In this document: piece after piece, positions 1 to 14,074 of the stretch
Numbering within the stretch: position 1 is the first letter of the stretch
Layout: each line of letters opens with the position of its first letter
Assembly: GCA_003567205.1 (NCBI GenBank)
Contig: PXAA01000107.1
Coordinates: forward strand, 1 to 36,606
DNA from: Bacteroidales bacterium
GTDB taxonomy: Bacteria; Bacteroidota; Bacteroidia; Bacteroidales; UBA7960
Direction of reading: 5' to 3'
DNA: 36,606 nucleotides
Program-made: the position numbers and the translations under genes
Notes under the pieces: generated by a model
Seen by the model: the letters and a program-made list of their open reading frames with translations, nothing else
Told to the model about the DNA's origin: nothing
The model's database searches: none

Positions 1-218
1 AGCGCGGTATTCCACGAAAAGGGTACAATATCATGAATGCAGAAGGCGAAACCATTGGGCAGGTAACTTCAGGCACCATGTCGCCCACCCTGAAAAAACC
101 CATTGGCATGGGTTATGTGCAAAAAGCTTTTGCCAAAGCCGATTCTGAAATCTACATAGAAGTACGCGGAAAATCATACAGGGCCAGAGTGGTAAAATTG
201 CCATTCTATAAGAAGTAA
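1..218 (+). CDS. gcvT: Aminomethyltransferase GcvT (glycine cleavage T protein), C-terminal fragment
   Basis: Partial gene: the 5' part lies outside the window and the reading frame is already open at base 3. The roughly 70 visible residues are the C-terminal barrel of GcvT, with the family pattern of a G-x-T-S-G-T-x-S-P motif followed by I-G-M-G-Y-V, then V-R-G-K and a basic tail. GcvT transfers the aminomethyl carbon of glycine from the H protein to tetrahydrofolate in the cytoplasm. The ComB-like gene begins 12 bases after the stop, so the two are probably cotranscribed. The catalytic part cannot be judged from this fragment. Confidence 0.9.
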
Positions 219-230
219 ACAGATCGTATT

Positions 231-977
231 ATGTATAACGAGCAAGGCGACTATACAGTTCAGGTATGTTTTTCGCCATTGTCATGGCCGCTCTTTGATA
301 TGGGCAATGCCATCGTGATCGTTGCCGACATCTTCAGGGCCAGTACGGCCATTTGCACAGCCATTCACTATGGGGTGGCGGCCATCATTCCTGTTGAAAC
401 CATTGAGGAAAGTGAACAATGGAAGGCCAGGGGATATATTTCGGCGGGTGAGCGCGATGGGAAAACACTGGCCTGTGCAGATTTTGGCAATTCGCCCTTC
501 AATTTTATGGCAGAGCATTTGCGGGGCAAGACCATCGTGATGAATACCACCAATGGTACCCGTGCCATCAATATGGCGGCCCGGAATAATCCCCGGGTGC
601 TTGTCGGATCATTCATCAACCTTTCGGCAGTGTGTGCATATGCCCGGCAGCACAAAAAAAATATCAGCATTTTGTGCGCAGGATGGAAAGACCGCTTTAG
701 CATGGAGGATGCACTGTTTGCAGGCGCCGCCACAGAGGAGATCATAAAAACCGGCAAGGGCGCTTACCATACGGTATGTGATTCAGCCATTGCCAGTGTT
801 GATCTCTGGCAAATGGCCAAACATGACCCGGCCCTGTATATCGAAAAAGCAGCCCACCGCCACCGCCTCAAACGTCTTGGCCTTGATGATGTGATCGCTT
901 ACAGCCTGACCTTAAACCAGGTTGCTTCTGTTCCGGTTTGGAATGATGACCGCCTGGTGGACTACAAGACCCTTTAG
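231..977 (+). CDS. comB: ComB family 2-phosphosulfolactate phosphatase-like protein
   Basis: 248 aa, the usual length for the ComB family. The N-terminal half has the characteristic V-A-D-I-F-R-A-S-T (residues 31-39), then A-G-E-R-D-G-K, a D-F-G-N-S-P motif and N-T-T-N-G-T-R, followed by C-A-G-W in the middle; these are the family's acidic and phosphate-binding motifs. In methanogens ComB makes sulfolactate during coenzyme M synthesis; it is a Mg-dependent acid phosphatase. No other coenzyme M gene is visible, so the substrate here is unknown. It follows gcvT by 12 bases. Family assignment is firm; the reaction in this organism is inference. Confidence 0.85.
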   Translation: MYNEQGDYTVQVCFSPLSWPLFDMGNAIVIVADIFRASTAICTAIHYGVAAIIPVETIEESEQWKARGYISAGERDGKTLACADFGNSPFNFMAEHLRGKTIVMNTTNGTRAINMAARNNPRVLVGSFINLSAVCAYARQHKKNISILCAGWKDRFSMEDALFAGAATEEIIKTGKGAYHTVCDSAIASVDLWQMAKHDPALYIEKAAHRHRLKRLGLDDVIAYSLTLNQVASVPVWNDDRLVDYKTL

Positions 978-2809: not shown

Positions 2810-4747
2810 ATGGAACTGATTACATTTGATAAAACCCAATTGATCAACCTGGAATATTCCTTAGATAAGGAAATGGTTCGATCCAACCGTTCCGGCTCAT
2901 ATTCCTGTGCCACCATTCTGGGGTGCAATACGCGTAAATATCATGGTTTGTTGATTTGTCCGCAAGAGCAGCTCGACGGTGAACACCACGTTTTGCTATC
3001 AAAGGTGGATGAAACCATCATACAGCGGGATGCCGAATTCAATTTGGGTGTCAATAAATATCCCGGACGGTTTCATCCGAAGGGTCACAAATATGTGCGT
3101 GATTTTTCCGCAGAGATCATTCCGGTGGTTACTTACCGCGTCGGGGGCCTTGTGTTGACAAAGGAAACCATGTTTGTTACCGAAAAAGAGATGGTGATGA
3201 TCCGCTACACCCTGCAACAGGCACACTCCCCAACCCGCATCCGGCTGAACCCATTTCTTGCTTTCCGCAACATCCACCGGTTAAGCAAACGCAACATTGA
3301 CCTGGATACCAAGTATACATCCGTGCCGAATGGAATCCGGGTGCGCATGTACCATGGCTATCCTTACCTGTACCTGCAATTATCCAAAAAGAACGGCCAA
3401 TACGTACACGCTCCTGATTGGTACAACGACCTGGAATATATTCAAGAAGCGGCCAGGGGCTATGAATCACACGAAGACCTGTATGTGCCCGGCTTCTTTG
3501 AAATACCGATCCGTAAAGGGGAAAGCATTTTTTTATCGGCATCTACAGAGGAGGTTAACCCCTTGTCTCTTACCAGGTTATTTAGTGGAGAGATAAAGAA
3601 GCGTACGCCAAGGGATTCCTTTATCAACAGCTTAAGGAATTCCGCCGTTCAGTTTTTTGCAATCAGGGACAAACAGGCATCCATTACCGCAGGATTTCCC
3701 TGGATGGACTATTCGGGCCGCTATTCTTTTATTGCATTGCCCGGGCTTGCAAAGGTTGCACCCAAAAAAGACATCTGCCGGCTGGTCCTCGACCAGATGA
3801 TTGCCCGGATGGAAGGGCCATTTTTTCCTGAATCCGTTGTAAATCAAAAGATGGTATTTAATGCCGCAGATACTTCTCTGTGGTTCTTTCATGCACTCCA
3901 GCATTGTTTATCTGGCCTGGACAAAGCGGAAATATGGCAGCAATACGGCCCCTGTATTGAACGGATATTGGAAGGATATGCGCAGGGAAACCCGGTTGGT
4001 ATCAATATGCATGAAAACGGACTGATTCATATAGATGCAGCCAGCCCCGCGCTTACCTGGATGAATGCCGTAACTGATGGTCAATGCGTTACCCCCAGGT
4101 ACGGATACGTGGTAGAGATCAATGCCCTGTGGTATAATGCCATCCGGTTTGCAACAGAACTGGCGAAGGCAGCCGGAGAGAGCACCTTCCCTGCTAAATG
4201 GCTCCCTGTTGCCAAACAAATTGAGGATTCTTTCAGTGAAGTGTTTTGGAACGAAAAAGAAGGGTATCTCGCTGATTTTGTGCATGATGGAAATCAAAAC
4301 ATGCGTGTGAGGCCAAACCAGCTATTGGCTGCTGGTTTAAAATACACACCCATTTCCAAATATCAGATCAAACAAATTCTGGATATAATTGTACAACAAT
4401 TATTGACGTCGCGCGGTTTGCGAACATTGTCACCACAGGAACCCGACTACAAAGGACGCTATTACGGTGATGCCTATTCGCGCGATTCAGCTTACCACCA
4501 GGGCACGGTATGGGTATGGCCCCTGGCTTTTTTTGCAGAGGCTTGGATAAAAGTGTACGGAAAGCAAGGCAGGGAATACATTCATAAACTATTTGAAGGG
4601 TTTGAAGAAACCCTGACAGAGGCTGGAATAGGGACGGTTTCGGAAATTTTTGAAGGCGACCCGCCCCACCGGGCCTGTGGCGCCATTTCTTTTGCAGCCA
4701 GCATTGGTGAATTGTTGCGTATGGCAACCATTTGTAATATAGAATAA
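2810..4747 (+). CDS. Glycogen debranching enzyme (amylo-alpha-1,6-glucosidase family)
   Basis: 645 aa, typical of the prokaryotic/archaeal-type debranching enzyme. The N-terminal domain (about 1-250) has the family signature R-S-N-R-S-G-S-Y followed by C-N-T-R-K-Y-H-G-L-L. The C-terminal (alpha/alpha)6 barrel (about 280-640) contains P-W-M-D-Y-S-G-R near 310, N-A-A-D-T-S-L-W-F, E-I-N-A-L-W-Y-N-A, and G-T-V-W-V-W-P-L near the end. It hydrolyses alpha-1,6 branch glucose in cytoplasmic glycogen. There is no signal peptide. It is first in a run with the GT4 gene five bases downstream. ATG at 2810 has no Shine-Dalgarno, which is normal for this phylum. Confidence 0.93.
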   Translation: MELITFDKTQLINLEYSLDKEMVRSNRSGSYSCATILGCNTRKYHGLLICPQEQLDGEHHVLLSKVDETIIQRDAEFNLGVNKYPGRFHPKGHKYVRDFSAEIIPVVTYRVGGLVLTKETMFVTEKEMVMIRYTLQQAHSPTRIRLNPFLAFRNIHRLSKRNIDLDTKYTSVPNGIRVRMYHGYPYLYLQLSKKNGQYVHAPDWYNDLEYIQEAARGYESHEDLYVPGFFEIPIRKGESIFLSASTEEVNPLSLTRLFSGEIKKRTPRDSFINSLRNSAVQFFAIRDKQASITAGFPWMDYSGRYSFIALPGLAKVAPKKDICRLVLDQMIARMEGPFFPESVVNQKMVFNAADTSLWFFHALQHCLSGLDKAEIWQQYGPCIERILEGYAQGNPVGINMHENGLIHIDAASPALTWMNAVTDGQCVTPRYGYVVEINALWYNAIRFATELAKAAGESTFPAKWLPVAKQIEDSFSEVFWNEKEGYLADFVHDGNQNMRVRPNQLLAAGLKYTPISKYQIKQILDIIVQQLLTSRGLRTLSPQEPDYKGRYYGDAYSRDSAYHQGTVWVWPLAFFAEAWIKVYGKQGREYIHKLFEGFEETLTEAGIGTVSEIFEGDPPHRACGAISFAASIGELLRMATICNIE

Positions 4748-4752
4748 AAGAT

Positions 4753-6039
4753 ATGAAAGTATTGATGTTTGGATGGGAATTTCCGCCCCATATCTCCGGA
4801 GGACTGGGCACGGCATGTTATGGCCTTACAAAGGCGCTGATAAAGGCTGATGTGGAGATACTTTTTGTGGTACCCAGAATGTTTGGCGACGAAGAACCCG
4901 GAAGTATTCGCCTGATCAATGCCTCGGATGTTACTGTGGATGTCAGGGATGAAGTGTATAAAACCCATGAAAATAAGATTTCCTATATGGAGATTGATTC
5001 CACATTGCTTCCTTATGCCACAGAAGAGGAGTACTATCACCTGGTGGAACAACTCGAAAGCGGGGTGAGCCTGGAACAGCTGAACCTGCATACCCAGAAA
5101 TTCAAATTCATGGGCGGTTATGGAAAGAACCTGATGGAGGAAGTGCGCAGGTATGCCATTGTGGCCTCAAATATTGCCCGTGATAATGAATTTGACATCA
5201 TTCATGCCCATGACTGGCTTACCTACCTGGCAGGGATAGAAGCCAGAAAGATCAGTGGAAAACCCCTGGTGGTGCATATGCACGCTACCGAATTTGACCG
5301 TTCCGGAGACAATATCAACAATACTGTATATTCCATCGAGAAGGCAGGTATGGAAGCTGCCGACATGGTCATTGCCGTCAGCCACCTGACAAGAAATGTT
5401 GTAATCAACCGCTATGGCATTGACCCTGAAAAGGTGATCACCGTGCACAATGGAGTGGAGCCATCAAGGGATAATACTTCCGTTAGTATTAAGAGGCATG
5501 TGGATGAAAAAATTGTCACCTTCCTTGGCCGGATTACCTACCAGAAGGGTCCCGAGTATTTTATCGAAGCGGCATACAAGGTATTGCAAAAGGACCCCAA
5601 TGTCCGGTTTGTTATGGCCGGAAGCGGCGATCTTCTTCCCGTAATGATCCGGCGGGTTGCAAAGCTGGGAATGGCCACAAAATTTCATTTTACCGGCTTT
5701 TTGAAAGGAGATGACGTTGACCGTATGTTTGGATTGAGTGATGTGTATGTAATGCCATCCGTATCAGAACCATTTGGTATTTCACCCCTGGAGGCCATGC
5801 GTTCCAGCGTTCCTGTGATTATTTCCAAACAATCCGGTGTGGCTGAAGTTCTAAATCATGCGCTTAAAGTGGATTACTGGGATGTGGATGCCATGGCAGA
5901 TGCCATTTACGGCGTTTTATGCTATCCGTCGATGCATAAGATGTTCAGGAAGTACGGAAAAGCCGAAGTGGAAAACATCAAATGGGACCAGGCAGGGATG
6001 AAGGTCAAAAATATTTATAAACGAATAATGCACACATAG
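4753..6039 (+). CDS. GT4-family glycogen synthase-like glycosyltransferase
   Basis: 428 aa, GT-B fold. The N-terminal Rossmann domain opens with the synthase-type loop H-I-S-G-G-L-G-T (13-20) and has H-A-H-D-W at 151-155 and H-M-H-A-T at 175-179; the C-terminal domain has F-L-G-R (257-260), a Gly-rich M-A-G-S-G-D motif and the E-x7-E pair E339/E347 that binds and positions the nucleotide-sugar. Family knowledge and context (debranching enzyme before, GH57 after) point to extension of an alpha-1,4-glucan from ADP- or UDP-glucose. It lies five bases after the debranching gene and 31 before the GH57 gene, so an operon is likely. The donor specificity cannot be read from sequence. Confidence 0.88.
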   Translation: MKVLMFGWEFPPHISGGLGTACYGLTKALIKADVEILFVVPRMFGDEEPGSIRLINASDVTVDVRDEVYKTHENKISYMEIDSTLLPYATEEEYYHLVEQLESGVSLEQLNLHTQKFKFMGGYGKNLMEEVRRYAIVASNIARDNEFDIIHAHDWLTYLAGIEARKISGKPLVVHMHATEFDRSGDNINNTVYSIEKAGMEAADMVIAVSHLTRNVVINRYGIDPEKVITVHNGVEPSRDNTSVSIKRHVDEKIVTFLGRITYQKGPEYFIEAAYKVLQKDPNVRFVMAGSGDLLPVMIRRVAKLGMATKFHFTGFLKGDDVDRMFGLSDVYVMPSVSEPFGISPLEAMRSSVPVIISKQSGVAEVLNHALKVDYWDVDAMADAIYGVLCYPSMHKMFRKYGKAEVENIKWDQAGMKVKNIYKRIMHT

Positions 6040-6070: not shown

Positions 6071-7309
6071 ATGAAGTCAATTTGTTTTTATTTTCAGGTT
6101 CACCAGCCTTACCGGCTTTCTTCTTATCGTTTCTTTGATATTGGCGCACACGATAATTATTTTGATGAATATGCCAACAGGTATATTATGCAGCAAGTGG
6201 CCGAAAAATGTTATCTGCCTGCCAACGAGGTGCTTCTCGGGCTGATTAAAAAATACGGGAAAGATTTTAAGGTCAGTTTCAGTATTTCCGGGCTTGCCCT
6301 GGAGCAATTTGAACAATACGCCCCGAAAGTATTGAAAAGCTTTCAGAAACTGGCCGACACAGGAAACGTTGAATTTCTTGCCGAAACCTGGGCGCATTCG
6401 CTGGTATCACTAAAAAGTAAAAAGGAGTTCAGTGAACAGGTAAAAATGCATGTGCGCAAGATCAAATCGCTTTTTGGTCAAGAACCCCTTACTTTCCGAA
6501 ACACCGAACTGGTGTATTCCAATGACATAGGCAACGTGGTTTACAACTTGGGTTTCGATACCATGCTGACTGAGGGTGCCAAACATGTGTTGGGCTGGAA
6601 AAGCCCGAACCTGTTGTATTGTAGTGCCGCCAATCCCAAGCTGAAGTTGTTGCTGAAAAATTTTCAGCTTTCCGACGACATTGCATTCCGATTCTCTGAG
6701 CGGGCATGGAAAGAGTGGCCCCTCACGGCGGAAAAATTTGTTTCCTGGATTGAAAATATCAATCCGCGGGATGAGGTAATCAATTTGTTTATGGATTATG
6801 AAACTTTTGGGGAACATCAATGGGCGGAAACGGGAATTTTTGATTTCCTGAATAGTTTTCCTTCGCTGGCCATTGAAAAATCGGGGATGCAGTTTAAGAC
6901 CCCTTCTGAACTATCTAAGGTATTGCAGCCGGTGGCACAGCTTAATGTCCCATACCCCATTTCCTGGGCAGATGAGGAAAGAGACTTGACTGCCTGGCTT
7001 GGAAATGAAATGCAGGACGAAGCATTTAACAGCCTATATGATATTGAAAGCAAGATCAGGAAAATCAAAGATGATAAGATGATGCGTCAATGGCGCTATT
7101 TGCAAGCCAGTGACCATTTTTATTATATGTGCACCAAATGGTTTTCCGACGGGGATGTACATAAATATTTTAACCCCTACAGCTCGCCTTATGATGCTTT
7201 TATAAACTATATGAATGTATTATCCGACCTGGTGATCCGGGTCAATAAGCAAGCTGTCAGGAAACCAAAAAGGAAAGCCGCAGGCAAGAAAACTAATGCG
7301 CCGGCCTGA
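6071..7309 (+). CDS. Glycoside hydrolase family 57 alpha-glucan-acting enzyme (alpha-amylase-like)
   Basis: 412 aa. GH57 motif 1 is F-Q-V-H-Q-P-Y at 8-14; the catalytic nucleophile is likely E146 in F-R-N-T-E-L-V, and the acid/base D242 in L-F-M-D-Y-E-T-F-G. Length and motifs fit the cytoplasmic GH57 subgroup encoded beside glycogen genes in Bacteroidetes. It has no signal peptide, so it acts on internal glycogen or oligosaccharides. The last 20 or so residues are a Lys-rich tail. GH57 covers amylase, 4-alpha-glucanotransferase and branching activities, so the exact reaction is open; a branching or transferase role is possible because no glgB is seen nearby. Confidence 0.9.
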   Translation: MKSICFYFQVHQPYRLSSYRFFDIGAHDNYFDEYANRYIMQQVAEKCYLPANEVLLGLIKKYGKDFKVSFSISGLALEQFEQYAPKVLKSFQKLADTGNVEFLAETWAHSLVSLKSKKEFSEQVKMHVRKIKSLFGQEPLTFRNTELVYSNDIGNVVYNLGFDTMLTEGAKHVLGWKSPNLLYCSAANPKLKLLLKNFQLSDDIAFRFSERAWKEWPLTAEKFVSWIENINPRDEVINLFMDYETFGEHQWAETGIFDFLNSFPSLAIEKSGMQFKTPSELSKVLQPVAQLNVPYPISWADEERDLTAWLGNEMQDEAFNSLYDIESKIRKIKDDKMMRQWRYLQASDHFYYMCTKWFSDGDVHKYFNPYSSPYDAFINYMNVLSDLVIRVNKQAVRKPKRKAAGKKTNAPA

Positions 7310-7415: not shown

Positions 7416-10400
7416 ATGAGTAAACAGAAATTAACCCCCGATTATATTTTTGAAGTAAGCTGGGAGGTGTGCAATCAGATGGGGAAACTCCACGGTTTGA
7501 TCCGTTCCAAAGCCCCTGTGCTATCCGGCAAGTATAAGGACAATTACATATGCATTGGCCCGGATGTGTGGAAAGAGACCCACAAACATCCTGAATTTGC
7601 TGAAGACACAAACCTGTTTAGCGCATGGCGCGAACACGCGACAGAACAAAAGATCCATGTCCGGATTGGCCGTTGGCAAATCAAAGGGGAGCCCATTGCC
7701 ATACTGGTTGATTTTACCCCCTTATTTGCTCAAAAGGATAAAATTTTCACTGACTACTGGCTGAAATACGGGCTGAACTCCCTGAGTGGCAAGTGGGATT
7801 ATACTGAGCCAGCCATGTTTGGCTATGTAGTTGGCCAGGCTATTGAAAGTTTTTATGACTTCTATCTGTCGGCACACGACCGCCTGGTTGTGCATTTCCA
7901 TGAATGGACAACAGGTACCGGTGTATTGTATCATCATGACAAAGTTCCCCAGGCAGGAACAATATTTTCAAACCAGGGAACCCTCCTGGGCAAGACTATG
8001 GCAAAACGTGGAGAAAGTATATCTGAAAAGCTTGACCGTATTAATGTCGAGTCGAAAGCACAAGAACTGGACATTGTTTCAAAACATAGCCTGGAGCAGG
8101 TAGCTTCACGGAATGCGGATGTGTTTATCACCATATCTGAAGAAAGAGCAAGGGAATGTGCACATGTGCTGGGAACCGAACCGGATCTGGTTATTCCGGA
8201 CGAAAAAAGCAAGGAAATCATTGACCTGTATCATAAAGCCTATGACATGGTCCTGCAAATGGCAGGAGACCGCTACAATCTGTACAAAGATAAGAAACAG
8301 CCTGTCCGGGCCGTTTCCATGCCCCCTGTAGAAAGCATGCGGCCAAAGTGGAAAAAAGTAAGCATCGGTGTCAATGTTCCGGATGCCTTACGGTTTTTAC
8401 CCGAGCTGGCGAGGAATATCTGGTGGACCTGGAATGTGGATGCCCTGGAGCTTTTTAAGGGCATCGACACGCAACTATGGGATAAATGTGACAAGAACCC
8501 CATCATACTTGTAGAGCATCTATCCATGGAGCATTATGAACGATTGCAGAAAGACAAACTGTTCATGAGGCAATACAGGAAGGTGGTCAGTGAGTTTTCG
8601 GCTTACATGGAGCATGGAAAAAAGAAACAATCGAAAAAGATCGCTTACTTTTCTATGGAATATGGCCTGAATGAGCATATCAAAATCTATTCAGGAGGCC
8701 TGGGTGTACTGGCCGGGGATTTCCTTAAGCAAGCCAGTGATGACAATGTGGATATGGTGGGAATTGGTTTGATGTACCGATATGGGTATTTTATCCAGAG
8801 CCTTTCTATTCACGGGGAGCAACTGGACACCTATCACCCGCACGATTTTGCCAGGATGTTTGCCATCCCTGTCCGGGATGAAAATGGGGAGCGTCTGAAA
8901 ATTCAGATTGCTTTTCCGGGACGTACACTCCATGCCCGGGTATGGCGCATCGATGTGGGCAGGATCACACTCTACCTGCTTGATACGGATATGTCTGAAA
9001 ACCAGCCTGTAGATCGTTTTATTACCCACCAACTATATGGGGGCGACTGGGAAAACAGGTTCAAGCAGGAATTTCTTCTGGGTATCGGTGGCATTCGCAT
9101 TCTGGATGCCCTGGGTATTCATCCTGATGTTTATCATTGTAATGAAGGGCATGCTGCATTTACCGGACTGGAAAGATTGCGAAAACATGTACAGGATGAT
9201 AAACTCAGTTTCTATGAGGCCCTTGAGGTGGTGCGCGCCAGCAGCCTGTTCACCACCCACACCCCTGTGCCTGCAGGACATGATTTTTTCAGTGAAGATA
9301 TGCTCCGCACCTATATGCCACACTATGCCGACCGGCTTGGTATCAGCTGGGAAACCTTTATGGGGCTTGGTAAAATGAACCCCCAGGACCCCAAAGAAGA
9401 CTATTCCATGAGCGTATTGGCTGCCAAGCTCGCAAAGCATGTCAATGGAGTGAGTAAGATCCATGGAAAGGTATCGAGAAATATGTTCAAAGACCTCTAT
9501 CCAGGATATTACCCGGAAGAGATACATATCGGACATGTTACCAATGGCGTTCACTATGGCAGCTGGACAGCCGGGGAATGGCAGGATCTTTACCGGAGAA
9601 CCTTTGGAGATGATTTTCTAAAGGATATTTCCGATCCCGTGGTGTGGGAAAAAATTCACAGTGTAGCGGATAAAGAAATTTGGGACCTGCGCAACAAGTC
9701 AAGGAAACGCTTGCTTGAATATATTGAACAACGTCTTTTGAACAACCTTGAACGCCGACAGGAAACGCCACGAAAGATTTACCAGCTTATGGAAGCCGTT
9801 GATGACACTACCCTGACCATCGGTTTTGCCAGGCGATTTGCTACCTACAAGAGGGCCCATCTGCTCTTTAATGACCTGGAACGCTTATCCAGGATCGTGA
9901 ATAACCCCGACATGCCAGTACAGTTTATATATGCGGGGAAAGCCCATCCGGCAGACAAAGCCGGGCAGGATCTGATCAAACGTATCCTGGAAATAAGCCG
10001 TAAAAAAGAATTTCGTGGCAAGATCCTGTTCCTGGAAGATTATGACATGGAACTTGGAAGGGAACTTGTTAAGGGCGTGGATGTATGGCTCAATACACCT
10101 ACCAGGCCTCAGGAAGCCTCAGGTACCAGTGGACAGAAAGCGGTTCTGAATGGTGTGATGAATCTCAGCGTACTTGACGGATGGTGGGCTGAAGGATATG
10201 TGGAAGAAACCGGTTGGAAACTCAAAGAAGAAAAAACGTTTGAAAACCAGGAATTCCAGAATGAGTTGGATGCCGAGACAGTTTATAACTTGCTGGAAAC
10301 AGAGGTGACCCCGATGTTTTATGAACGCGACGATGAAGACGTTCCAAAACAGTGGGTGCAGTGGATAAAAAATTGTATTGCCGGAATTGCCCCGCATTAC

Positions 10401-10877
10401 ACCAACAAGCGCATGATGGATGATTACTTTGGGTTCTATTACAATCGCTTGTTTGAATCATCCGAAAAATTTTCACGCGACGATTATAAGTTGGCCAGGG
10501 CTATGGTTCACTGGAAAAATAAAGTGGTGCGTACCTGGGATAATATAAAGCTTGTGGAAAAAAAGCTGTTGAGTAATTCCGGGAAAAACCTCCTGCTTGG
10601 CGATCTATTTATGGCCGAGTTGACGCTTGAGGTGAGTGACCTGAAAGATTCTGATTTCGGGGTTGAGGTGGTATTTGTCCAGAAATCACCTGGCGGCAGC
10701 CGCGAAATTGTTTCTGTTTATGAAATGGAGCATATGCAGTCGGAGAATAAGCGGGTTACTTTCAAGTGTGAAATACCGGCAAAAAGTACAGGTGTGTTTA
10801 ACTATGCCTTTCGTGTATTTCCGAAACATTCCGAGCTGGCACACCGTCAGGATTTTAACCTGATTAAATGGATATAA
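7416..10877 (+). CDS. glgP: Alpha-glucan phosphorylase with N-terminal partial glycogen synthase (GT3-like) domain
   Basis: 1153 aa. Residues about 10-255 resemble the first half of GT3 glycogen synthase (F-E-V-S-W-E-V, R-S-K-A-P-V, H-F-H-E-W-T-T-G, then A-D-V-F-I-T-I-S-E). A DUF3417 region follows from about 320 (L-A-R-N-I-W-W-T-W-N). The phosphorylase proper starts near 409 (I-A-Y-F-S-M-E-Y-G) and carries the pyridoxal-phosphate site A-S-G-T-S-G-Q-K with K908 as the Schiff-base lysine. It should release glucose-1-phosphate from cytoplasmic glycogen. The second Rossmann half of GT3, with its E-x7-E site, is not visible, so the N-terminal part cannot be a complete synthase. It lies 106 bases after the GH57 gene, in the same direction. 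Confidence 0.9.
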   Translation: MSKQKLTPDYIFEVSWEVCNQMGKLHGLIRSKAPVLSGKYKDNYICIGPDVWKETHKHPEFAEDTNLFSAWREHATEQKIHVRIGRWQIKGEPIAILVDFTPLFAQKDKIFTDYWLKYGLNSLSGKWDYTEPAMFGYVVGQAIESFYDFYLSAHDRLVVHFHEWTTGTGVLYHHDKVPQAGTIFSNQGTLLGKTMAKRGESISEKLDRINVESKAQELDIVSKHSLEQVASRNADVFITISEERARECAHVLGTEPDLVIPDEKSKEIIDLYHKAYDMVLQMAGDRYNLYKDKKQPVRAVSMPPVESMRPKWKKVSIGVNVPDALRFLPELARNIWWTWNVDALELFKGIDTQLWDKCDKNPIILVEHLSMEHYERLQKDKLFMRQYRKVVSEFSAYMEHGKKKQSKKIAYFSMEYGLNEHIKIYSGGLGVLAGDFLKQASDDNVDMVGIGLMYRYGYFIQSLSIHGEQLDTYHPHDFARMFAIPVRDENGERLKIQIAFPGRTLHARVWRIDVGRITLYLLDTDMSENQPVDRFITHQLYGGDWENRFKQEFLLGIGGIRILDALGIHPDVYHCNEGHAAFTGLERLRKHVQDDKLSFYEALEVVRASSLFTTHTPVPAGHDFFSEDMLRTYMPHYADRLGISWETFMGLGKMNPQDPKEDYSMSVLAAKLAKHVNGVSKIHGKVSRNMFKDLYPGYYPEEIHIGHVTNGVHYGSWTAGEWQDLYRRTFGDDFLKDISDPVVWEKIHSVADKEIWDLRNKSRKRLLEYIEQRLLNNLERRQETPRKIYQLMEAVDDTTLTIGFARRFATYKRAHLLFNDLERLSRIVNNPDMPVQFIYAGKAHPADKAGQDLIKRILEISRKKEFRGKILFLEDYDMELGRELVKGVDVWLNTPTRPQEASGTSGQKAVLNGVMNLSVLDGWWAEGYVEETGWKLKEEKTFENQEFQNELDAETVYNLLETEVTPMFYERDDEDVPKQWVQWIKNCIAGIAPHYTNKRMMDDYFGFYYNRLFESSEKFSRDDYKLARAMVHWKNKVVRTWDNIKLVEKKLLSNSGKNLLLGDLFMAELTLEVSDLKDSDFGVEVVFVQKSPGGSREIVSVYEMEHMQSENKRVTFKCEIPAKSTGVFNYAFRVFPKHSELAHRQDFNLIKWI

Positions 10878-10931
10878 TTGGGATTTTGCAAGGAATTTTG
10901 TAATTTCAACTGCTTTAAAAACCCAAAACAT

Positions 10932-11678
10932 ATGAAATTATTAGAAGGAAAAACCGCACTGATTACAGGTGGTTCCAGGGGAATTGGCAAAGCCATTGCC
11001 ATTGCATTTGCGCAGGTTGGAGCCAATGTGGCATTCTCCGACCTGGCGTATGACGACCTGGCCAAATCCCTGGAAACAGAACTAAAAAAAACGGGCGTGA
11101 AAGCCAAAGGCTATGCATCCGATGCAAGCAAGTATATGGACAGCGAGAACCTTGTTAATGAGGTTGTTGCTGAATTTGGCAGCATTGACATTCTTGTAAA
11201 TAATGCTGGTATAACACGGGATACCCTGATGATGCGCATGACAGAAGAGATGTGGGATGATGTAATCCGTATCAACCTGAAATCTGTCTTCAACCTTACC
11301 AAAGCAGCGCAGAAATATATGTTGAAGCAACGGAAGGGAAGCATCATTAATATGGCATCTGTTGTGGGCATTGGCGGCAATGCCGGACAAGCCAACTATG
11401 CTGCCTCAAAAGGAGGCTTGATTGCTTTTACTAAGTCCGTTGCTCAGGAGATTGGTGCAAGAAATATCCGTGTAAATGCCATTGCCCCGGGCTTTATTGA
11501 AACCGAAATGACGGCCAAACTCCCCGAAGATGTGAAAAAAGGGTGGACGGAAAGGATTCCGCTGAAAAGGGCCGGACAACCGGAAGATGTTGCCAACCTT
11601 GCCATATTTCTTGCTTCGGAAATGTCCTCGTATATTACCGGACAAGTTATTACTGTTTGCGGAGGAATGAATAAGTAA
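10932..11678 (+). CDS. fabG: 3-oxoacyl-[ACP] reductase FabG
   Basis: 248 aa when started at ATG 10932; an upstream in-frame extension from 10878 is rejected because M-K-L-L-E-G-K-T-A-L is the normal FabG N-terminus. It has the NADPH loop G-G-S-R-G-I-G (13-19), N-N-A-G (90-93), catalytic S143, Y156 and K160, and P-G-F-I-E-T after the active site. FabG reduces 3-oxoacyl-ACP in type II fatty acid synthesis; classical SDR paralogues with other substrates look similar, but sequence and length fit FabG well. It lies 54 bases after the phosphorylase and 11 bases before recF. Confidence 0.88.
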   Translation: MKLLEGKTALITGGSRGIGKAIAIAFAQVGANVAFSDLAYDDLAKSLETELKKTGVKAKGYASDASKYMDSENLVNEVVAEFGSIDILVNNAGITRDTLMMRMTEEMWDDVIRINLKSVFNLTKAAQKYMLKQRKGSIINMASVVGIGGNAGQANYAASKGGLIAFTKSVAQEIGARNIRVNAIAPGFIETEMTAKLPEDVKKGWTERIPLKRAGQPEDVANLAIFLASEMSSYITGQVITVCGGMNK

Positions 11679-11689
11679 ACGCACCCAAC

Positions 11690-12832
11690 ATGCATTGTCG
11701 GCAAATCAGTATGGTCCAGTTTAAAAACCTGGAAGAACTGCAGGTGGAACTGTCTGCCAAGTTTAACTGTTTTGCCGGACACAATGGAGCCGGCAAAACC
11801 AATTTGCTGGATGCAATCTATTACCTTTCTTTTTGTAAAAGCTTTACAAATCCCATTGACACGCAAAATATCCGTTTCGGAAAAGATATCTTTGTTATAC
11901 AAGGCATTTACCAGTTAAATGGCCAGAAAGATACACTCTACTGCGGATTGCAGCGCGGACAGAGAAAGGTATTCAAAAAAAACAAGAAAGAGTATGGGCG
12001 CCTGTCAGACCACATTGGCCATTATCCCCTGGTATTGCTAAGCCCGGCCGATGCCCGGCTCATACTTGGCGGCAGTGAAGACCGGCGTAAATTTGTGGAT
12101 GGGGTCATTGCCCAGTACAATAAGGAGTATCTGCATAAACTCATTAATTACAATAAGGCTTTACAGCAACGCAATGCCTTGCTGAAGATCTTTGCCGAAA
12201 AAAGACGCTTTGATAAAGATTCACTGGATATATGGGATGATCAACTGGTCACCAACGGGGAATATATTTATAAGGAACGGATTGTATTCTTTCAGGCGTT
12301 TTTGCCTGTGTTTCGGAAGTATTATGCTTTTTTGTCGGGCGAAAAAGAGCTTACGGATATTATCTATGAATCTACCCTGCATGATACCGATTATTATGCC
12401 CAGTTGCAGGCAGCCACAGATAAGGACCGAATTGCCCAACATACAACCACAGGCATTCACAAAGATGACCTGTCTTTTCTTATTCACAATGAACCCATCA
12501 AGAGATTTGGCAGCCAGGGGCAACAAAAATCCTTCATTATAGCACTGAAACTTGCCCAGTTTGTTTTTACCAAAGAAATCAAAGGTTACAACCCGATTTT
12601 GTTGTTTGATGACATTTTTGACAAACTGGATGCTTCGCGGGTCAGGCAGCTTATGCAACTGGTAAGCCAGGAGGATTTCGGGCAGGTTTTTGTTACCGAC
12701 ACCCATCCGGAAAGGCTGGAAGAATTGTTTATGTCGATTCCATCTGAATGTAAGATCTTTTTGATGGAGCAGGGTGGTATAAAACAAAGCAAGATTCTTA
12801 ACAACCAGGCTGGTAAAAACAAGCAGGCATGA
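11690..12832 (+). CDS. recF: DNA replication and repair protein RecF
   Basis: 380 aa, SMC-like ABC ATPase. Walker A is G-H-N-G-A-G-K-T at 30-37, followed by the RecF pattern N-L-L-D-A-I-Y-Y-L-S-F-C-K-S. The ABC signature is F-G-S-Q-G-Q-Q-K-S-F and Walker B is I-L-L-F-D-D-I-F-D-K-L-D near the C-terminus. RecF loads RecA at single-strand gaps with RecO and RecR. The gene overlaps the next one by four bases (ATGA), so the two are translationally coupled. The start ATG fits the family N-terminus. Confidence 0.95.
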   Translation: MHCRQISMVQFKNLEELQVELSAKFNCFAGHNGAGKTNLLDAIYYLSFCKSFTNPIDTQNIRFGKDIFVIQGIYQLNGQKDTLYCGLQRGQRKVFKKNKKEYGRLSDHIGHYPLVLLSPADARLILGGSEDRRKFVDGVIAQYNKEYLHKLINYNKALQQRNALLKIFAEKRRFDKDSLDIWDDQLVTNGEYIYKERIVFFQAFLPVFRKYYAFLSGEKELTDIIYESTLHDTDYYAQLQAATDKDRIAQHTTTGIHKDDLSFLIHNEPIKRFGSQGQQKSFIIALKLAQFVFTKEIKGYNPILLFDDIFDKLDASRVRQLMQLVSQEDFGQVFVTDTHPERLEELFMSIPSECKIFLMEQGGIKQSKILNNQAGKNKQA

Positions 12833-13123: not shown

Positions 13124-14074
13124 TTAGTCATGGATATCTAATTCCAGTTTGCTTTTTCGTATGCCCTTCACCCTGGCCTGGATCAACGATTGTTGTCCAT
13201 ATTTCCTGATGGCTTCTTCATCTATGTGGATTTTAACTTCTTGTCCAAAACAATCATTCAGTACCAGTACTTTTTGTTTGTAGCCATCTGTAAACACCAT
13301 CTCTTCCATCCTGTCCACTGGAAATTCATAGGTTTTACCCAAGCGGTAGCAAGGATGCACTGGTTCAAGAAAAAAATATCCTTCCGATGCGAATTTGTCA
13401 ACGCGGCATAAAATTTCCTGTCCCTTTTTCAGGCCATATTGCAGGTAATATTTCTTTTTCAGCATATGTTTATTCCCTTTGCTGTCTTCCATTACAAAAT
13501 AAACGTTCCCATTGTCGGGATGTATACGTTCGTCAATGATAACAAATGGATATGTTTTACCTGTTTCCAGGTCAGGGTGTTCGATCTCTTCGCCATGTAT
13601 AACCAGAAACAATTTGCCCTTTTTTATTCTTTTCAGCTTACATTCGATGCTTTCCGGTGGATTCTCCCATAATTTTCCCGAAAAGGTCCGCACTTTCCAC
13701 TTTTTGTCAAACATATCCCTGACCATGAAATACCACTCATCCTGGTCAAGTATATTCTTTTTTTGTCCTTTACACGCCAGGGAAAATAAATACACCTCCC
13801 CTTCTTTATAAAATGGATGCATGGGTTCCAAGTACATACGGCCGTTGCAGTTGATCTTATCTACCCTACAACGGATCTCTTGCCCCTGTTTAAATCCGTA
13901 ATCTATGTAATATTTTTCAGGCAAAAGTATTTTATAGCCATTGGGATCCAGTAAAACAAACCAATTATCGCCGGGTTCCAGTGAAATGAGCTTCAGGATA
14001 AGAAAGGAATACACCTGGCCTTCTTTCAGGCGGGCATTGGGAATATGTAATTGCCGGACATCCATAGGAAGCAT
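13124..14074 (-). CDS. Duplicated OB/S1-like protein of unknown function
   Basis: 316 aa, no recognised family name. It is an internal tandem duplication with a 154-residue offset: residues about 17-161 and 169-316. Matching landmarks are K-Y-Y-I-D-Y-G-F-K-Q-G-Q-E-I at 54-67 versus K-Y-Y-L-Q-Y-G-L-K-K-G-Q-E-I at 208-221, each followed by C-R-V-D-K, and Y-L-E-P-M-H-P-F-Y at 81-89 versus F-L-E-P-V-H-P-C-Y at 235-243. The short beta-rich pattern suggests four OB- or S1-like barrels, so nucleic acid binding is a guess. There is no signal peptide or membrane segment. Its ATG overlaps the pncA stop (TAATG); a second ATG three codons in is possible. Confidence 0.75.
   Translation of the reverse strand: MLPMDVRQLHIPNARLKEGQVYSFLILKLISLEPGDNWFVLLDPNGYKILLPEKYYIDYGFKQGQEIRCRVDKINCNGRMYLEPMHPFYKEGEVYLFSLACKGQKKNILDQDEWYFMVRDMFDKKWKVRTFSGKLWENPPESIECKLKRIKKGKLFLVIHGEEIEHPDLETGKTYPFVIIDERIHPDNGNVYFVMEDSKGNKHMLKKKYYLQYGLKKGQEILCRVDKFASEGYFFLEPVHPCYRLGKTYEFPVDRMEEMVFTDGYKQKVLVLNDCFGQEVKIHIDEEAIRKYGQQSLIQARVKGIRKSKLELDIHD

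Follow-up and report, generated by a model that had tools for sequence, protein, structure and literature searches.

Why should a bacterial phosphorylase gene begin with half of a glycogen synthase, and what could that half still do? The question arises at a locus of a Bacteroidales bacterium (GTDB lineage UBA7960; assembly GCA_003567205.1), whose contig PXAA01000107.1 was analyzed over positions 1 to 36,606; this whole stretch of 36,606 nucleotides is termed the window. On its plus strand, the open reading frame (ORF) 7416..10877 is a single uninterrupted frame for 1153 residues. According to the ORF scan, Pfam, and TIGR02094, it encodes the N-terminal domain of a family 3 glycosyltransferase (GT3) glycogen synthase, the C-terminal helix of the same enzyme, a linker, DUF3417, and an α-glucan phosphorylase of family GT35. 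We consider it reasonably probable that the product works as a phosphorylase, that the module it retains from the synthase is non-catalytic, and that it arose by one deletion in a fused GT3-GT35 ancestor.

The synthase-like part corresponds to the first half of the family only. The Pfam profile PF05693 (Glycogen_syn) matches residues 13-262 with its positions 1-250 of 639 (E 4.4e-36; 125 bits, cut-off 27), and positions 251-639 are unmatched in the 1153-residue protein, which thus has no C-terminal Rossmann domain and no E-x7-E site. The original prediction, made from the sequence, had read residues 10-255 as the N-terminal half of a GT3 synthase and had seen no sign of the half with E-x7-E; both points were borne out, and Pfam detected no full GT3 domain within the first 400 residues. 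The homologues, which might have shown this region to be unrelated to GT3, show GT3. Among PDB entries, residues 8-266 match yeast glycogen synthase (best E 6.5e-30) and residues 10-273 match human GYS1; apart from these synthases, the only match was at chance level (E 2.6). The remainder of the protein matches DUF3417 at residues 321-421 (8376..8678; 112 bits), which forms the N-terminal part of DUF3417-type α-glucan phosphorylases, the Pfam Phosphorylase family, and the α-glucan family phosphorylase profile TIGR02094 at residues 409-1010 (8640..10445), over profile positions 1-599 of 600 and with 847 bits against a cut-off of 191.7.

Longer relatives locate the missing part. Fused frames in the order are mostly ~1400-1450 residues long, in agreement with the original statement that related proteins are longer and have a fuller synthase part. 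An alignment of 8 short forms, 9 long forms of the same genus, and 13 further long forms indicates that ~255-275 residues of the long forms are missing, in frame, from the short ones. The two forms can be matched up to residue 262, where the 'TPNG' strand ends, and once more from the helix 'KEIIDLYHKAYDMVLQMAGDRYNLYKDKKQP' onward, with a junction around residues 262-264 (8199..8207). The genome that we number G014 keeps ~20 more junction residues than the window protein, which would fit a single deletion of ~255 residues and later erosion, and short-form lineages differ in how far the sequence beyond residue 255 has eroded. The main alignment used 27 of 46 loci (5 short, 9 long of the same genus, and 13 others) together with loci L001, L003, and L008; L033, L032, L034, and a reverse-complemented L008 were used instead of the minus-strand loci L002, L005, L006, and L008; those left out were partial, near-duplicate, distant, or frame-broken (L073), and 20 residues were added at the start of the G018 protein, whose start codon is uncertain. 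The 22 long forms counted below are the 9 of the genus and the 13 further ones, the partial G010 and G019 not being among them.

Structure prediction with AlphaFold2, for which the first alignment had 28 rows (8 short, 20 long), gave a model of the short protein in which the N-terminal part contains the first Rossmann domain and not the second. The predicted local distance difference test score (pLDDT) was 85 for the long GT3 part and 76 for the short protein (predicted template modelling score, pTM, 0.64). Secondary-structure elements of the two models are near-identical to residue 251, and helix 266-285 of the short model stands where the long model has helix 541-560. Aligned with VIA-align, residues 5..288 of the short model superpose on yeast Gsy2 4..622 (3naz_C; Z 34.0, root-mean-square deviation (rmsd) 2.5, 279 aligned) and residues 4..287 on human GYS1 22..620 (8cvy_A; Z 34.4, 281 aligned). 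Because 279 of 284 residues are aligned to Gsy2 and the range ends at 622, the helix of the short form must correspond to the last helix of glycogen synthase. In the short form, the second Rossmann domain alone is missing, and the first Rossmann domain (residues 5-262; 7428..8201) is spared together with the C-terminal, or cross-over, helix of GT3 (residues 265-288; 8208..8279). The charged linker originally proposed for about residues 256-315 is therefore shorter than thought: a linker does join the remnant to the phosphorylase at residues 289-319 (8280..8372), and within the stretch after residue 262 pLDDT falls below 50 only at 298-304 and 306-317, but residues 265-288 belong to the retained helix. 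The evidence for the deletion and for the loss of the synthase site is strong. One in-frame deletion, in an ancestor shared by some members of the genus, best accounts for them; it is the simplest reading and is not proven.

Short and long forms coexist in the window's genus. Among its 21 genomes, 9 carry the short form and 11 the full-length fusion (~1430 residues); G017 is counted in neither class, showing only the C-terminal 307 residues, a fragment that groups with the long forms of G015 and G019 (100/100). Eight short forms are complete (1153-1186 residues as extracted) and have intact frames, and the ninth, in G012, runs to residue 551, where its contig ends. The seven other complete short forms are 72-88% identical to the window protein, and all eight further ones 68-88%. 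Long forms of the genus give two PF05693 matches (~1-346 and ~414-548 of the profile), and 10 of the 11 genomes with the long form match the C-terminal half of GT3, with E values of at most 5.9e-30; the exception is G019, in which a contig end cuts the frame. All nine short-form genomes give one PF05693 match, to the N-terminal half, ending at profile position 249-262, and no second GT3 was found in them.

A match was present in 56 of 59 genomes searched as relatives, and the long fusion is common in public genomes. The named records that contain these loci are for the most part metagenome assemblies of Bacteroidales, and many belong to the CSSed series, presumably from soda-lake sediments. 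In an order-wide sample of 295 genomes, 168 had a match to residues 182-332, used as a junction query; among the matches listed, the whole query was matched only by G000, G014, and G016, all of the window's genus. Five frames of 1137-1196 residues in this sample were rejected as further short forms: in G186 and G143 a contig end coincides with the expected cut of the frame, and those of G293, G291, and G211 were judged to be cut from their coordinates only. The sample also includes a frame of 466 residues in G219. Two GT3-containing genes occur in one genome of the order (G143:C155 and G143:C166). At G055:C5:178431-182636, GT3 (a 555-residue frame) and phosphorylase lie in one reading frame and the read-through frame holds a single TAA, possibly a picture of interconversion between fused and unfused forms.

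What remains of the synthase has lost most of its substrate contacts. The UDP-glucose contacts described for the first domain of human GYS1 include Gly41 and His205 (both through the backbone), Ala206, and Arg211 (PMC9287172). With a constant offset of 18 (query 10-273 = GYS1 28-291), their equivalents are residues 23, 187, 188, and 193. Long forms have Gly at residue 23 in 20 cases and Ser in 2, and His187, Ala188, and Arg193 in all 22. The nine short forms read GDGSSSDND at residue 23, QRQEHRHHH at 187, GGEEEENNK at 188, and KKNKKQLAL at 193; Ala206 and Arg211 equivalents are thus kept in none of the nine, His205 in four, and Gly41 in two. The window protein, with G23, Q187, G188, and K193, keeps one of the four. 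Gly24, invariant in long forms, is present in 4 of 9 short forms (Lys24 in the window protein), and the double glycine in none. Glu163, equivalent to Gsy2 Glu169 by alignment, is kept in four short forms and His162 in all nine.

The changes are concentrated in two loops that hold the UDP-glucose contacts reported for GYS1 and that are degraded in every one of the nine short forms. One is the degraded glycine-rich loop at residues 21-33 (7476..7514), which reads GGIHT in most long forms and GKLHG in the window protein; the other is the degraded substrate loop at residues 185-196 (7968..8003), where TTHAT..GR of nearly all long forms is replaced by SNQGTLLGK. Among 69 columns of the half that are invariant in the 22 long forms, 45 are kept in all nine short forms, and a change in at least one short form affects 13 of 13 invariant columns in the loops and 11 of 56 elsewhere (Fisher p 6e-8, a descriptive value because the loops were delimited with the alignment already in view). 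A looser count, of 88 columns conserved in at least 21 of the 22 long forms and scored in 8 short forms, found 51 kept. Residues 48-61 and 85-137 form conserved blocks outside the degraded loops. The kept half is probably non-catalytic.

Substitution rates give a similar picture. Median omega, the ratio of nonsynonymous (dN) to synonymous (dS) distances, is 0.079 for the N-terminal half and 0.049 for the phosphorylase in short forms (28 pairs), and 0.046 and 0.047, respectively, in long forms (36 pairs), although these values are rough because most synonymous distances are saturated. When dN is expressed relative to the phosphorylase and short forms are divided by long forms, the quotient is 0.5 for residues 1-20, 3.6 for 21-40, 1.8 for 41-60, 1.0-1.3 for 61-160, 2.0 for 161-180, 3.8 for 181-200, 2.0 for 201-220, 1.5 for 221-240, and 1.7 for 241-260. 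By these quotients, the substrate loops show the strongest relaxation of constraint, the last third of the half a moderate one, and residues 61-160 a slight one. Such a pattern would fit a domain freed from catalysis yet held to its fold or surface, and would also be compatible with slow decay. As in a pseudoenzyme, the GT3 half has lost active-site residues while its fold stays under purifying selection, as far as the rough omega values indicate.

The phosphorylase part looks intact in both alignment and model. Residues 295-1153 superpose on the glycogen phosphorylase of Segatella copri (20yr) with Z 44.8, rmsd 3.5, 818 aligned residues, and 46% identity, and the core is 46-49% identical to the solved S. 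copri enzyme. The aligned range includes a C-terminal beta-rich part at residues 1045-1136 (10548..10823) of the AlphaFold2 model. All eight complete short forms carry the motif GTSGQK, which ends at K908; we take GTSGxK to be the motif of the lysine that binds pyridoxal phosphate, with K908 as the candidate. Certain residues of the synthase half are also peculiar to fused proteins: E60, W127, G136, and H162 are invariant in the 22 long and 9 short fused forms and absent from all eight standalone GT3 proteins of the order, which were chosen by frame length from a larger number. At G125, two of the eight standalone proteins share the fused-form residue, and H26, R72, and K117, likewise fused-only, are conserved only in part of the short forms. 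A contact of the invariant residues with the phosphorylase would fit this pattern, although the standalone proteins may form a separate lineage, and we regard this as a lead and not as a result.

We propose the following course of events. The starting point would be a fusion of GT3 glycogen synthase and GT35 phosphorylase, of a kind widespread in this order of Bacteroidia, which could probably both build and break down glycogen. An in-frame loss of ~255-275 residues would have removed the Rossmann domain with E-x7-E and left the first domain with the C-terminal helix that packs on it. The first domain itself lost most of the equivalents of the UDP-glucose contacts of GYS1, while much of its remainder and the phosphorylase stayed constrained. 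The resulting short protein would be unable to make glycogen and would act as a glycogen or maltodextrin phosphorylase; its GT3 remnant is probably an accessory module for glycogen binding, scaffolding, or oligomerisation, which would hold the phosphorylase on glycogen or organise its quaternary structure. Published work offers precedent for glycogen synthases with non-catalytic glycan sites and roles of the N-terminal domain. Any glycogen synthesis that still occurs would fall to another enzyme, the best candidate being a GT4/GT5-like protein encoded nearby. In its fullest form, the proposal is that a make-and-break fusion became a one-way, glycogen-tethered phosphorylase with an anchoring or regulatory remnant and passed synthesis to this neighbor; this we advance tentatively, as somewhat doubtful in its entirety.

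Several observations weigh against this proposal. The divergence of the N-terminal half relative to the phosphorylase (ratio of minus log identities) averages 1.98 in short forms and 1.18 in long forms, and the rise in dN spreads beyond the two loops, by 1.5-2.0 times at residues 41-60, 161-180, and 201-260. Phosphorylase dS is below 1.3 in only 2 of 28 short pairs and in none of 36 long pairs. The nine short forms make up one clade in the tree of the N-terminal half (100/98), which may partly reflect shared decay of the loops; the phosphorylase tree places them with the long forms of G005, G006, and G008 in a clade (100/99) whose inner order is a polytomy, so that a clade of short forms is not shown there, although a single clade of the eight complete ones is not rejected (approximately unbiased test, p 0.378). 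The window protein itself retains the Gly41 equivalent. The GT4/GT5-like gene was not found in the short-form genomes G012 and G014, lies on another contig in G011, G018, and G020, and in G016 its same-contig piece is ~15 kb off.

Part of this evidence can be read as plain decay, in which the half synthase is functionless and persists since in-frame loss is rare or since folding of the phosphorylase needs an N-terminal part. The roughly twofold faster change of the N-terminal half in short forms, with rises outside the two loops as well, and the lineage-specific erosion after residue 255 agree with it, and phosphorylase frames of 855-864 residues without GT3 do occur in the order (G036, G038, G053, and G057). 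Against decay stand the eight intact frames at 72-88% identity to that of the window, the low omega of the half, and the 45 of 69 invariant columns kept, with changes gathered in the substrate loops. A retained module is favored because the changes concentrate in those loops and much of the remainder is conserved, and decay seems to us unlikely. We judge it about equally improbable that the remnant is an allosteric or regulatory module, which would govern the phosphorylase in response to a metabolite or partner and would not bind glycogen. The conserved blocks at 48-61 and 85-137 would suit such a role, as would E60, W127, and G136 if they touch the phosphorylase; however, no ligand site was identified, the model leaves the relative position of the domains uncertain (pTM 0.64), and the fused-only residues may mark a different GT3 lineage, three of the eight such columns not being fully kept in short forms.

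That the protein is still a synthase, its N-terminal half working with a C-terminal half from another protein, strikes us as very improbable. The genomes do encode other GT-B proteins, such as the GT4/GT5-like neighbor, but no second GT3 match was found in the nine short-form genomes (an absence that is not final because the genomes are incomplete), most substrate residues of the N-terminal half are lost, and the other half synthase that was found, of family GT5, is also an N-terminal half. An artefact of assembly or binning is just as hard to credit. The genus is represented in its named records by metagenome assemblies, and the window's genome is 75% complete; nevertheless, the short form recurs in frame in eight further genomes at 68-88% identity, and in the order-wide sample no genome outside the genus crosses the junction among the matches listed. 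With nine genomes in frame, we rejected this explanation.

Upstream of the fusion on the same strand, in an operon-like arrangement, lie genes for a glycogen debranching enzyme (2810..4747; Pfam GDE_N and GDE_C), the GT4/GT5-like glycosyltransferase of 428 residues (4753..6039), and a GH57 glycoside hydrolase (6071..7309; a family-level match only). The best NCBIfam match of the glycosyltransferase is glgA_Coryne, below the cut-off (138 bits against 302), and its best PDB match is GlgM. Its gene occurs in 7 of the 9 short-form genomes (in G016 as two contig pieces) and precedes the fusion by ~1.4 kb in G000, G004, and G013. Directly after the phosphorylase gene, the window encodes a short-chain dehydrogenase/reductase (10878-11678), followed by a 380-residue protein with RecF/SMC-like AAA matches (11690-12832, plus strand). 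Two minus-strand ORFs, 2068-2706 (212 residues) and 13124-14074 (316 residues), had no Pfam match at 0.001.

Other glycogen genes were sought across the 21 genomes of the genus. GlgA and GlgC were absent above cut-off from all of them, with weaker matches in 21 and 17, respectively, and GlgE was absent from all at any level, which argues against the maltose-1-phosphate route. The lack of GlgC is described as the rule in Bacteroidetes (PMC10395257). Because long- and short-form genomes alike are without GlgA and GlgC, the short forms are distinguished only by the loss of GT3. Five of the nine short-form genomes (G011, G013, G016, G018, and G020) contain a branching-enzyme-like frame of 665-695 residues, with 202-237 bits to TIGR01515 (cut-off 464); at that level none was seen in G000, G004, G012, or G014, or in 6 of the 11 genomes with the long form. 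A GH77 match above cut-off is present in the window's genome. One contig (G000:C64) encodes a standalone 275-residue N-terminal half of a GT5 glycogen synthase (L092, 1354-2181, minus strand), in which the glycine loop looks lost by eye; it is oriented divergently to a 281-residue ORF that looks to us like pantothenate synthetase. Equivalents, seen as TIGR02095 N-half matches in frames of 276-297 residues, occur in 19 of the 21 genomes.

No description of the long fusion or the short form was found in the open-access literature that was searched. Because full-length and shortened fusions occur within one genus, they allow a before-and-after comparison of what the GT3 half contributes to the phosphorylase other than catalysis, a point on which that literature yielded nothing either. 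The short form illustrates the reduction of a GT-B enzyme to a single Rossmann domain plus its cross-over helix and, with the GT5 fragment, provides a second case of a half glycogen synthase kept in the same genomes. It also carries a warning for annotation, since a GT3 match in these genomes does not equal a glycogen synthase.

Among known systems, the long GT3-GT35 fusion is the closest: it has the same domain order, is 73-79% identical over residues ~269-1153 in nine genomes of the genus, and has the GT4/GT5-like gene upstream on the same contig in four (G002, G006, G007, and G009). In the long fusion, the second Rossmann domain and E-x7-E are present and the contacts to UDP-glucose are intact; the short form has neither of the former and has lost most of the latter. 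The glycogen phosphorylase of S. copri (PDB 9l6i, 20yr) is of the DUF3417 type, like residues 295-1153 of the short form, but its chain of ~852 residues has no GT3 remnant. Yeast Gsy2 and human GYS1 share with the short form the first Rossmann domain and the returning C-terminal helix; their second Rossmann domain and E-x7-E are absent from it, and most UDP-glucose contacts of their N-terminal domain are lost. In print, the nearest remark is that Bacteroidetes keep a conserved GlgA-GT5 fragment (PMC11046441). In the genomes studied here it is likewise an N-terminal glycogen-synthase half, but it is standalone, of another glycosyltransferase family, and with no phosphorylase. The same paper describes a glgA-glgB fusion of Waddliaceae and Criblamydiaceae in which the branching-enzyme domain is inactive; like the short form, it is a fused glycogen protein with one enzymatic part inactive, although the enzymes and the phylum differ.

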